Positions 25,308 to 29,373 of a DNA stretch of 64,000 nucleotides are shown in pieces (position 1 is the first letter of the stretch; each line of letters begins with the position of its first letter). The stretch comes from Prochlorococcus sp. AG-402-M18. Lineage in GTDB: Bacteria > Cyanobacteriota > Cyanobacteriia > PCC-6307 > Cyanobiaceae. The notes beneath the pieces are model-generated. The model had not been told where the DNA came from. It searched no databases and saw nothing but the letters and a program-made list of their open reading frames with translations. The position numbers were made by a program, and so were the translations under genes. Location: NCBI GenBank assembly GCA_003216595.1, contig QCIQ01000002.1:62001-126000 (forward strand). Direction: 5' to 3'.

Positions 25308-26552
25308 ATGACTCCTGAGCGGCTGGGCTTGCTCTGGGGTATCACAGTTTTTTCTGGAGCTGCAGCAAGACTACTGTCGGTGCTAACAGGACTTCCTGGG
25401 GTGGTTTTATTGTTGCTGTCTGGATTATTGATTGGTAGATCAGGCCTCGGATTGGTTGAACCTTTAGATCTAGGCAAGGGATTGGAGACAATAGTTGGTT
25501 TATTGGTAAGTCTTGTTTTATTTGATGGTGGTTTAAATCTTCGTTTCCCTGGAGGGGCAATAAAGTCAATAGTTCTAAGAATTTCTTCAATTAGATTAAT
25601 TATTTCTTTAGCCGCTGGCTTCCTTGCTGCTCATTGGTTTGCTGGTCTTGGTTGGTCAGTAGCAGGAGTTTACAGTGCAATAGTTCTTGCGACCGGGCCA
25701 ACTGTTGTAACTCCATTAGTTCGACAAATTCGCCTTGCGTCACCATTGAGTGATGTCCTTGAAGCGGAAGGTTTGATACTCGAACCTATTGGAGCAGTTC
25801 TTGCACTTTTGTTATTAGAGCTCGTTGTTGGAGACTTGCATGGCTGGAGAGAACTGCTCCTTGGTTTGCTTTCAAGGCTTGGAGGAGGAGTCTTAATTGG
25901 ATCACTGGCAGGCCTGCTGCTTTCAGAAGGTTTGAAGCGCTTACGTTCAGAGCCTTATATTGGGATAAGATTGCAACTGACTCTTGGAGTGATTTTCTTG
26001 CTTTATGGAGTATGCGAAAGGTTGTTACCTGAATCAGGATTACCTGCATCTGTTGCAGCAGGGTTTGTTGTAGGGCAAAGACCTTCTACACAGGCGAATG
26101 AACTTGATAAATTAATAAGAGAATTAGCTCAGTTAGCAATAACTATGCTTTTCCCTCTGCTGGCAGCAGATGTTTCATGGAGCGAATTGAGTCCTTTGGG
26201 GTGGGGGGGGATAACGTGCGTACTTTTTTTGATGACAATAGTGAGACCAATAGCTGTATCGATAGCAACTTATGGATTACCTCTTGATAATAAACAAAGG
26301 TTGTTTCTTGGTTGGTTAGCTCCCCGTGGAATTGTTACTGCGGCAGTTGCTTCTTTATTTTCTATTAGATTAGAGCAAGCAGGCGTTTTAGGGGCTGGAA
26401 AACTTCAGGGATTAGTTTTTTTGACAATATTAATGACAGTAGGCATACAAGGTTTAACAGCTCAACCATTCGCAAAAATGTTGGGTTTATTGGACGAAGA
26501 AAAAGATCTAGATAAATCTACTAATTCTGATTCTATCTTTACTGAATCTTGA
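25308..26552 (+). CDS. Na+/H+ (monovalent cation/proton) antiporter, CPA1/NhaP-type
   Basis: Exchanges sodium or potassium for protons across the plasma membrane. The 414 residues have about 12-13 hydrophobic helices with the family segments [48 protein letters not shown] (E-x-x-x-x-x-P) and [15 protein letters not shown]. There is no large cytoplasmic TrkA-type tail. G+C is visibly higher than in its neighbours. ATG at 25308. The 3' end overlaps convergent gltX by 45 bp. Confidence 0.88.
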
Positions 26553-27938
26553 AAGTAAAATCCAACTTTGAATTAAATCAGGTCCATTAAGAGTTCCAAA
26601 AAGAGCAGCTCTAATGCTTTTCATAACAAGACCTTTTTTTACTTTGCAGTTCTTTGTGGCTTGATTTATTACATCAAGTGCTTCCTCCTTACTAAATGCG
26701 GCAGCTTCTAATGTTTCCAGTTTGTCAAGAATAAACTTTAAAATTTCTTTTGATTCTTTGATTTCTAATTGTTTTTTTCCGTCATTACTTAATTCGGGTT
26801 CTTCAAAAAAAGGTTTGGCTTGATTAACTCCATCATTAATGAGAACCATAGATGGACCAATTAGATCTACGAGATTTTCCCCCCATTCTTGACTAGGCAA
26901 ATACCATCCATTTTCTTTGAACAAAGGATCTAAATTTTTTAATAAAGTTTCGGCTGACATTTCATGTATTACTTGAGAGTTGAGCCAATTCAATTTGTCC
27001 CAATCAAATTTAGCTGAAGCTTTATTGACCTTTTTAAAACTGAAAATTTCAGAAATTTCAGAAATTTTGAATCTTTCATTGATTCCCTCTGGAACAGACC
27101 AGCCAAGAAGAGTCATATAATTTGCCATCGCTTCAGATGTGTACCCCATTTTCTTGAATTCAGAAATCGAAGTAACTCCATCCCTTTTGGAAAGTTTTTT
27201 TCCTTCAGAATTAAGAATTAAAGGAGTATGAGCAAAAACAGGAATATTGAGATCGAGAGCTTCATAAAGAAGAATTTGCTTTGCAGTATTTGCAATATGA
27301 TCTTCTCCCCTAATTACATGGGAAATTTTCATTGCTGAATCATCTGCTACAACAACTAGATTGTATAAGGGGTCGCCAATTGAATTTGCTGGAGCTCTTC
27401 TTGCAATGACCATATCACCGCCTAAATCTTTTCCACTCCATGTCATTTTCCCGCGAATCAAGTCATTCCATGAAATTATTTTTTGATCACTGATTTTGAA
27501 TCTGATAACAGGCTCTCTTCCCGCATTTATAAATTCAGATTCTTGTTCTGGAGTTAAATTTCTATGCCTATTATCATATTTTGGAGCTAAACCTTTGCTC
27601 TTTTGCTCTTCTCTCATTTCATTTAGTTCAGATTCTGATGCATAACATCTATATGCAAACCCTTTAGAGATAAGAGATTTTATAATTGTCTTGTGTTCAT
27701 TTATTCTTTTACTTTGAATGATTGGGGTTTCATTCCAGTTAATGCCTAGCCACTGGAGCCCATCATATATATTTTTTATATATTCTTCTTTTGATCTTTC
27801 AATATCAGTATCTTCAATTCTTAAGAGAAAAGTTCCACCTTCTTTTTTTGCAAATAGCCAGTTAAATAGAGCCGTTCTCGCTGTTCCTAGATGAAGTGTT
27901 CCTGTTGGACTTGGTGCCAATCTTACCCTGACTGTCAA
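26508..27938 (-). CDS. gltX: Glutamyl-tRNA synthetase
   Basis: Charges tRNA-Glu, and in cyanobacteria this product also feeds tetrapyrrole synthesis through glutamyl-tRNA reductase. From TTG at 27938 there are 476 residues, the usual length. HIGH-type motif [20 protein letters not shown] begins at residue 9 and the KMSKS-type motif is [10 protein letters not shown] near residue 240. A longer reading from 27986 would run into the tRNA-Asp gene, so it was rejected. It overlaps convergent nhaP-type gene by 45 bp and lies 22 bp downstream of tRNA-Asp. Confidence 0.96.
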
Positions 27939-27959
27939 AGCTATAATTCGATTTAGATA

Positions 27960-28033
27960 CGGGACCGACGGGATTCGAACCCGCAACTTCCGCCGTGACA
28001 GGGCGGTGCTCTAACCAGTTGAACTACGGTCCC
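27960..28033 (-). tRNA. tRNA-Asp (anticodon GTC)
   Basis: Cloverleaf of 74 nt. Acceptor GGGACCG pairs with CGGTCCC, discriminator G. Anticodon loop CTGTCAC sits between CCGCC and GGCGG. The T loop is TTCGAAT with a GCGGG/CCCGT-type stem. The G73 discriminator fits Asp. CCA is not encoded. Confidence 0.96.
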
Positions 28034-28046
28034 AATTTAAGGCTTT

Positions 28047-28232: not shown

Positions 28233-28421
28233 TTAAGGACGGAAACCCGCGGGCTCAATAAGCCTAACTTGATTTCCACGAGCTGTGAACTCGCGGCCTT
28301 GGTCGCTTTGCACTACAACTCGGCCACCTGATTTTACACGAATAACTCGAGCCCTGACCCAGCCTAGTGCGGCTGACTCAAGAACTTTTACGACATCGCC
28401 AGGTTGAAGATCCAACTCCAT
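28233..28421 (-). CDS. Small conserved protein, 62 aa, SH3-like; probable picocyanobacterial hyperconserved protein
   Basis: Biochemical function unknown. The 62 residues read as a small all-beta domain: LQPGDVVKVLE, WVRARVIRVKSGGRVVVQSDQG, TARGNQVRLIEP. Alternating hydrophobic strands and a PGDVVKV opening resemble SH3/KOW-type barrels, which often bind RNA or protein. G+C is about one half, far above neighbouring genes. The gene sits between tRNA-Asp and tRNA-Trp. Length and setting match, from memory, a protein reported as nearly invariant in Prochlorococcus and marine Synechococcus. I could not verify identity. Basic residues would suit RNA contact. Confidence 0.85.
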   Translation of the reverse strand: MELDLQPGDVVKVLESAALGWVRARVIRVKSGGRVVVQSDQGREFTARGNQVRLIEPAGFRP

Positions 28422-28456
28422 TCTTTAAAAAAGTAACTGTAGACAAGGTTTTCGAA

Positions 28457-28529
28457 CGCGCCGTGGAGGACTTGAACCCCCGACATCAGGTTTTGGAGAC
28501 CTGCGTTCTACCAACTGAACTAACGGCGC
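28457..28529 (-). tRNA. tRNA-Trp (anticodon CCA)
   Basis: Cloverleaf of 73 nt. Acceptor GCGCCGT pairs with ACGGCGC, discriminator G. The anticodon loop CTCCAAA lies between CAGGT and ACCTG. T arm GGGGG-TTCAAGT-CCTCC is intact apart from a wobble. CCA is not encoded. It lies 59 bp after rplS. Confidence 0.96.
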
Positions 28530-28588
28530 ATTTTTATACCCTTTAAGTCATCGATAGCCAATGACTTTTGATTGAGGAGGCCGAAACC

Positions 28589-29077
28589 TCAGCGGTCGAA
28601 GCGCTGCTTTACGCGTGTGGCTTTGCCCACTCGCTCACGCAGATAGAAAAGCTTCGCTCTCCTTACTTTACCTCGGCGTTCAACCTTAATGGATGCAACT
28701 TGTGGACTGTGAACCAGAAAAACTCTTTCAACTCCTATTCCTTGGAAAATGCGCCTTACTGTAATTGTTTGATGAATTCCTCCATGTCGCTTTGCTATTA
28801 CGACACCTTCGTAGGGCTGAACTCTCTCCTTGTTACCTTCACTTATTCGGACACCAACACGAACAGTGTCACCAACATAAATCTCAGGGAGATCTTTGTT
28901 TAATTGTGCATCTTCAAAAGTTTTGATTATTTCAGTAGAAGAGAGCTTTTTGATTGAAATTTTCTTTCCTTTAGATTTTTCTTGAGAAGCACTTTCTACT
29001 CCAGACTCCTTCGGAGCCTTTGATTTATCTTCAACTTTTACCTCTTCAGAAGAGGGCTCTTTAGATTCAACTGACAT
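28589..29077 (-). CDS. rplS: 50S ribosomal protein L19
   Basis: Ribosomal protein at the 30S-50S interface. From ATG 29077 there are 162 residues. The L19 body occupies the last 115 or so: [35 protein letters not shown], then [40 protein letters not shown]. The first 45 residues are an extension rich in Glu, Lys and Ser ([14 protein letters not shown]), seen in cyanobacterial and plastid-type L19. Two earlier starts (TTG, GTG) add only two residues. It heads a minus-strand run through tRNA-Trp, the small conserved gene and tRNA-Asp. Confidence 0.96.
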
Positions 29078-29373
29078 CACCAATTACTCTTGATTTGACC
29101 GAGCACATATTGTAACCGCTTGTTTCTCAAATTAAAAATTTTTATAAATCTGAGCTTTTTATCATCTGAGCAAAATTTTCGCATTTGGCTTTAATTTCAG
29201 TGAGCGAATGCTCGTTTAAAAAAATATTCTTTGAAAACGATCCTCTAATAATAGGAATTTTATTAAAGATAAAGAATTTTTTTTAGGAAATTGTCCCTAT
29301 CCTTTTGATAGGTTAACTAATATTTGATTATTAATAAAATGCAAATCTTAGATTTTTACTTTCTCTCTAAGCA
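29078..29373. other. 296-bp divergent gap between rplS and map
   Basis: Very AT-rich. It must hold the rplS and map promoters. Two short perfect stems are visible: GAGC-GAAT-GCTC near 29200 and CCTATC-CTTTT-GATAGG at 29296-29312. Neither is followed by a T-run that would make a good terminator. No ORF above 20 codons with a ribosome site and no tRNA was seen. Confidence 0.5.

Follow-up and report, generated by a model that had tools for sequence, protein, structure and literature searches.

PSHCP, the Prochlorococcus/Synechococcus Hyper Conserved Protein, is encoded at positions 28233-28421 of the minus strand of the window, i.e., the 64,000-nucleotide stretch of Prochlorococcus sp. AG-402-M18 DNA that was analyzed. 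Its gene, pshcp, is remarkable only for the conservation of the protein: 62 residues remain nearly invariant across marine and lake picocyanobacteria while the gene and its neighbors diverge, which suggests a probably essential role in some very abundant phototrophs. Most probably, PSHCP binds RNA as a partner of the translation machinery that is peculiar to this lineage and would hold tRNA or rRNA via a basic patch of its barrel on or near the ribosome; selection on the DNA would act mostly via the protein and via a translation-start region of the ordinary kind.

Along the minus strand, the genes are arranged in the order rplS, tRNA-Trp, pshcp, tRNA-Asp, gltX. The parts of the locus are the following:

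28589 to 29083, minus strand: rplS, encoding ribosomal protein L19 (PF01245, E = 1.2e-45; TIGR01024, E = 2.5e-46)
28456 to 28530, minus strand: tRNA-Trp (CCA), found with ARAGORN and matched by the Rfam tRNA family
28422 to 28455, minus strand: leader of pshcp, 34 nt from the 3' end of tRNA-Trp to the ATG, without GGAG, GAGG or AGGA in the last 18 nt
28233 to 28421, minus strand: pshcp, ORF with ATG start and 62 amino acids, for a hyperconserved SH3-like (Tudor/KOW) barrel protein
28398 to 28421, minus strand: codons 1-8 of pshcp, the start region, where synonymous changes are constrained at codons 2-8 (codon comparison across loci)
27959 to 28034, minus strand: tRNA-Asp (GTC), found with ARAGORN and matched by the Rfam tRNA family
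26508 to 27938, minus strand: gltX, encoding glutamyl-tRNA synthetase (TIGR00464, E = 2.1e-160, on the longer mechanical ORF)

The 34 nt following the 3' end of tRNA-Trp are the whole intergenic leader of pshcp. The start of gltX is likely the TTG at 27938 and not the mechanical TTG at 27986, because the longer mechanical ORF begins inside tRNA-Asp. A search of the whole genome gave a single copy of pshcp, and nusG of this genome lies on another contig. An earlier note on this DNA had placed the 62-residue gene between the two tRNA genes and had seen a link to translation in its position after rplS; both points agree with this layout.

Residues 1-56 of the pshcp product are 100% identical to PDB entry 6NNB (E = 2.4e-31), which is entitled "Solution structure of the Tudor domain of PSHCP", and the order rplS-trnW-pshcp-trnD-gltX is the one given for PSHCP in the published description (PMC4215834). 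These two matches settle the identification, and the protein is thus an already known one; the earlier note had correctly pointed to a hyperconserved protein of these genera. The ORF is real and not a chance frame, as 278 of the 300 genomes sampled from the host family encode it, including 194 of the 196 better assemblies. The protein of the window is 100% identical to the best 80 of 363 loci, a figure biased upward by this choice of loci. Thirty of the 278 family matches were not exact over the full length, as read from E-values and genome size, and two of these 30 were cut by contig ends. Among 13 sequences picked to include divergent ones, the other 12 were 92-98% identical to the protein of the window. 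Averaged within bins of genome pairs, protein identity was 99.4-100% for PSHCP, 76-94% for L19 and 54-92% for GltX; the loci compared lean toward exact PSHCP matches, which raises the first figure.

The G+C content of pshcp is about one half against a background of about one third, as the earlier note had stated (0.519 with and 0.527 without the stop codon, compared to 0.356 for the window), and the note had taken this as a sign of strong constraint at the nucleotide level. The G+C content at codon positions 1, 2, and 3 was 0.73, 0.44, and 0.38, respectively, and that of four-fold sites 0.29; most of the excess therefore sits at sites fixed by the protein. When codons for the same protein were drawn as they are used in 41 long ORFs of the window, a G+C content of 0.454 ± 0.019 was expected and 0.04% of the draws reached the observed value. 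When nine ribosomal-protein genes of this genome supplied the codon usage instead, the expectation was 0.487 ± 0.021 compared to the 0.527 seen, and 4% of the draws reached it. According to these draws, amino-acid composition (8 Arg, 7 Gly, 10 Val, 5 Ala) accounts for somewhat over half of the excess and the codon choice of translation genes for about a fifth more, leaving a small residue.

Constraint on protein and DNA was separated by comparing 104 distinct loci with pshcp, rplS, and gltX (of 111 usable ones, among 129 with pshcp). In pairs with 50-60% GltX identity, the protein identity was 0.998 for PSHCP, 0.810 for L19 and 0.543 for GltX, and the four-fold codon identity was 0.271 in pshcp, compared to 0.258 in rplS and 0.236 in gltX. 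Since the latter values lie close together, nucleotide-level constraint over the whole pshcp ORF was rejected, and with it, in the main, the argument of the earlier note, which is thus partly supported, its remaining points being upheld. In agreement with this, pshcp was described as showing many synonymous substitutions and purifying selection (PMC4215834, citing a 2007 paper). Nucleotide-level selection on pshcp is nevertheless not nil, because the codon identity in the three most divergent bins (0.27, 0.29, and 0.36, compared to 0.26, 0.26, and 0.33 for rplS) was slightly above that of both neighbors, the slope of its G+C content at four-fold sites (GC4) against the host was damped (0.55 vs. 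0.86 for rplS), only the above-mentioned 0.04% of the draws reached the observed G+C content, and codons 2-8 are constrained. In the 0.7-0.8 bin, rplS exceeded pshcp in codon identity, and in the 0.8-0.9 bin both neighbors did.

The same data bear on the idea that the identical protein reflects a recent spread of one allele among genomes instead of constraint. Identity of 100% across genera would fit such a spread, but the synonymous sites of pshcp are about as diverged as those of rplS and gltX, its GC4 follows the host (correlation of 0.90 with the GC4 of gltX), and the position of the locus is fixed, so that this explanation is refuted and has next to no chance of being correct.

Within the ORF, the excess of codon identity over that expected from codon usage averaged 0.296 for codons 2-8 and 0.048 for codons 9-62 (divergent pairs), and all 257 seven-codon control runs in rplS and gltX were below 0.296, the best one reaching 0.244. 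The strongest synonymous constraint among these control runs (0.18-0.24) was found for rplS codons 136-148 (about 28640-28680 of the window), near the 3' end of the gene and upstream of tRNA-Trp, where a promoter is possibly embedded. In pshcp, codon 2 is GAG, codon 3 TTR, and codon 4 mostly GAT; GAG at codon 2 was present in 53 of 53 low-GC loci and in 35 of 37 high-GC loci keeping Glu. A comparison of 106 distinct leaders (of 125) revealed that 98 combine GAG at codon 2 with the absence of GGAG, GAGG, and AGGA from the last 18 nt, and four with such a motif have GAA at codon 2. The other four carry TCC (two) or GAT (one) without the motif and AGA (one) with it. Five loci (L066, L043, L117, L115, and L121) have a longer leader with a GAGG-like motif before the ATG and GAA instead of GAG at codon 2; the loci with GAA are perhaps one clade and hence represent few independent events. 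At three further loci, L125 and L126 (both genus g9) and L122, the start codon is shifted to the position of codon 3 (MDLQPGD...), and the Met-Glu-Leu start is absent.

The start constraint is not peculiar to pshcp. In 30 family genomes, the starts of the six ribosomal-protein genes with enough aligned columns gave values of 0.449 (L16), 0.338 (S17), 0.328 (L5), 0.172 (S8), 0.075 (L14), and 0.003 (L22); for L29 a single column could be used, and for L24 there was no such column. This comparison used all pairs of the 30 genomes, whereas that for pshcp used divergent pairs only. Because the starts of L16, S17, and L5 show the same effect, the constraint is ordinary for part of the ribosomal-protein genes, and the idea that the first codons of pshcp carry a dedicated autoregulatory signal was rejected. 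Inspection by eye of minimum free energy folds of every eighth of the 106 sequences showed no common hairpin in leader and start.

A nucleotide element that overlaps the ORF between the two tRNAs, whether a non-coding RNA or a DNA signal, might be proposed as the cause of both the conservation and the high G+C content, and the G+C content of one half against one third, the residual excess after the codon-usage draws, the damped GC4 slope, and the synonymous conservation of codons 2-8 all fit such an element. It is, however, largely refuted by the four-fold codon identity, which is near that of the neighboring genes. Moreover, the excess of 0.048 in codons 9-62 has to be compared with 0.024 in 269 control columns, no Rfam family matched over the pshcp ORF at E ≤ 0.1, and the start effect is shared by three of six usable ribosomal-protein genes. 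We therefore regard a nucleotide element as highly improbable.

The arrangement of the locus is conserved. In 125 of 129 loci tRNA-Trp is located 32-49 nt upstream of pshcp, with a spacing of 33-35 nt in 105 of the 125, and the other four loci lie at contig ends. Downstream, tRNA-Asp was found in 123 of 129 loci, and five of the six exceptions have less than 700 nt of downstream sequence. One locus (L122, genome G049) differs from comparable loci in having neither tRNA-Asp nor gltX within about 1.5 kb downstream of pshcp. Another one, L078 (CALPNT020000095.1), carries rplS-pshcp-gltX under the title of a Bifidobacterium breve MAG; its GltX is 59% identical to that of the window, and the contig is picocyanobacterial and misnamed.

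Within the genomes sampled, PSHCP is restricted to the picocyanobacterial clade. Of the 22 family genomes without pshcp, two belong to the 196 better assemblies and the other 20 are of lower completeness. Genome G168 lacks not only pshcp but also rplS, and in G182 the contig with rplS stops 19 nt past the gene, so that both absences look like assembly gaps. In G182 (L144, L170), the contig with rplS is followed by a second one that begins with its reverse complement and runs into tRNA-Asp; either the assembly folded back on itself here or the pshcp site was rearranged locally. Of 388 genomes sampled across the class, 64 family genomes matched, and nine others gave weak hits only (E = 0.007-0.1). 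None of the family was among the 20 listed of the 315 non-matching genomes, from which we infer a distribution of 64 of 64 inside the family and 0 of 324 outside it. Two weak outside hits (G314, G358) have other neighbors and lack the rplS or tRNA context, and were not regarded as homologs; four others have stop codons within the matched stretch. A search of phages with the protein minus its first Met gave no match, and among 34 pattern matches in viral contigs none was a relative.

The history of the site was traced in 26 outgroup genomes, in 25 of which the rplS locus was found. tRNA-Trp follows rplS in 21 of these 25 loci (it was not found in L158, L163, L167, and L168), and nusG lies after tRNA-Trp in 12 of the 21 (within 1.3 kb). 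Two families, f11 (two genomes) and f10 (four of six genomes, those where rplS was found), show the order rplS-trnW-trnD with a spacer of 116-390 nt that contains no PSHCP-like ORF. gltX is next on the same contig in three f10 genomes (G308, G354, and G341) and elsewhere in both f11 genomes. In a GltX tree of 25 genomes, f11 and then f10 were nearest to the host family, with a support of 100/99 for the family versus the rest and a moderate support of 92/90 and 91/92 for the next two splits; this tree is unrooted and has a very long branch for one member of the family. As the nearest sister families have an empty trnW-trnD spacer, the site existed before the gene, which either originated in it or entered it by insertion close to the base of the family. 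The empty site of the sister lineages thus places the origin of pshcp on the tree. Descent of pshcp from a nusG remnant in place was rejected, since the two nearest families have neither nusG there nor a PSHCP-like ORF in the spacer, and since nusG of the present genome is on a different contig.

The earlier note had proposed a small SH3- or KOW-type barrel with a basic surface, and structure prediction and comparison point the same way. PSHCP is a five-stranded SH3-like barrel of the Tudor type with a computed pI of 10.7. The AlphaFold model, made from the single sequence, has five strands and a mean pLDDT of 85.7 (range of the five models 85.7 to 49.8). Foldseek retrieved 6NNB with it (E = 1.2e-6), followed at about 4e-3 to 6e-3 by archaeal Spt5, myosin N-terminal barrels, a designed SH3-type barrel, and human Tudor domains. 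In VIA-align, where entries within 1 Z unit count as tied, Tudor domains reached Z scores of 9.5 to 8, 6NNB itself 8.1, Pyrococcus Spt5 8.4 (32% identity), and residues 636-688 of chain z of the B. subtilis MutS2-disome entry 8.2. From the residue numbers in PMC10897456, the latter segment was taken as the MutS2 KOW domain.

Reading of methylated residues by Tudor domains depends on an aromatic cage. A function in the recognition of methyl-lysine or methyl-arginine, as known from eukaryotic Tudor domains, to which the Tudor domains of TDRD3, PHF1, and PHF20 among the top structural neighbors (Z about 9) could point, is very unlikely, as the aromatic residues of PSHCP, a single Trp and two Phe without any Tyr, are too few to build the cage as it is commonly described, and as KOW domains score nearly as high in VIA-align.

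Similarity to KOW domains was also seen in profile comparisons. With a PSHCP profile of 13 rows, two of them trimmed to their own ATG, HHalign ranked three KOW families as the top three of 14, namely MutS2 with 54% (26 columns), L24 with 18% (36 columns) and NusG with 12% (12 columns only). The other 11 families gave ≤ 3.3% and reversed PSHCP ≤ 1.7%; the KOW families among themselves reached 20-50%. The L24 alignment is in register, pairing PSHCP residues 3-38 with the beginning of the KOW motif; that with MutS2 is out of register. The MutS2 profile was based on 30 loci, with L263 dropped as short; L250 and L251, whose longest frame was the wrong one, were left out of the KOW profile and kept in the MutS2-core control, and the KOW region was cut by alignment, a motif search having missed 16 of 29 rows. 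Seven weak tblastn hits were obtained, three of which were inspected: those in G183 and G168 lie within MutS2 (E = 0.04 and 0.35) and are not significant alone, and that in G182 lies outside MutS2 and contains a stop codon. No KOW family was among the six Pfam hits for PSHCP at E ≤ 1, and SH3_1 (PF00018) scored 22.0 bits, below the gathering cut-off of 22.9, over residues 2-28 only.

Kinship with KOW domains is a lead and not a result. It is conceivable, though rather doubtful, that PSHCP is a free-standing KOW-type domain as in L24, NusG, and MutS2 and not a true Tudor domain, that at the base of the picocyanobacterial family it was born in, or inserted into, the spacer between trnW and trnD, and that it was then frozen as a clade-specific ribosome or tRNA factor. 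The similarity would offer a specific ribosomal contact: the KOW domains of MutS2 and NusG are described as binding uS10 (PMC10897456), which by analogy is one candidate site for PSHCP. The proposal in print instead concerns L2 and 23S helices 75-76.

In a 2019 NMR paper, a titration reportedly showed binding of tRNA by PSHCP, centered on Lys30, in line with the preferred reading of PSHCP as an RNA-binding partner of the translation apparatus. Since much of the surface of so small a protein would make contacts, nearly every residue would be constrained. The tRNA-mRNA-tRNA arrangement may allow release of the pshcp mRNA by processing of the tRNA 5' and 3' ends; co-transcription with rpl19 and both tRNAs, and not with gltX, was reported (PMC4215834, citing others). 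According to the same source, pshcp is transcribed in three strains, with a protein level of the order of that of RbcL. The earlier note had named normal synonymous rates together with absent expression as the outcome that would speak against it; the rate is indeed near normal, but the gene is expressed in the three strains tested in PMC4215834. Its suggestion of contact with RNA or the ribosome is supported by the published pull-down, in which L2, PsaD, and a Ycf48-like protein were partners in three strains (PMC4215834).

The capture of photosystem proteins in this pull-down counts against a role in translation, and PSHCP might instead mainly link the ribosome to photosystem assembly. PsaD and the Ycf48-like protein were recovered in all three strains tested, but with one to four unique peptides each and with a tagged bait in lysate (PMC4215834). 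As the gene neighborhood is translational and our data offer no pointer to photosystems, we consider such a link unlikely and favor the handling of tRNA or rRNA.

Compared to PSHCP as described (6NNB; PMC4215834), the protein of the window is the same in sequence, length, and gene order, shows no difference, and is a member. The Tudor domains of TDRD3, PHF1, and PHF20 share its fold (Z = 9.0-9.5, rmsd 1.0-3.4 over 50-59 residues) but only about 13-26% of its sequence, and PSHCP differs from them by its few aromatic residues and the lack of a plausible methyl-reading cage. The KOW domains of L24, NusG/Spt5, and MutS2 resemble PSHCP in fold and in profile ranking, below the level of proof, whereas PSHCP stands alone and is strongly basic.
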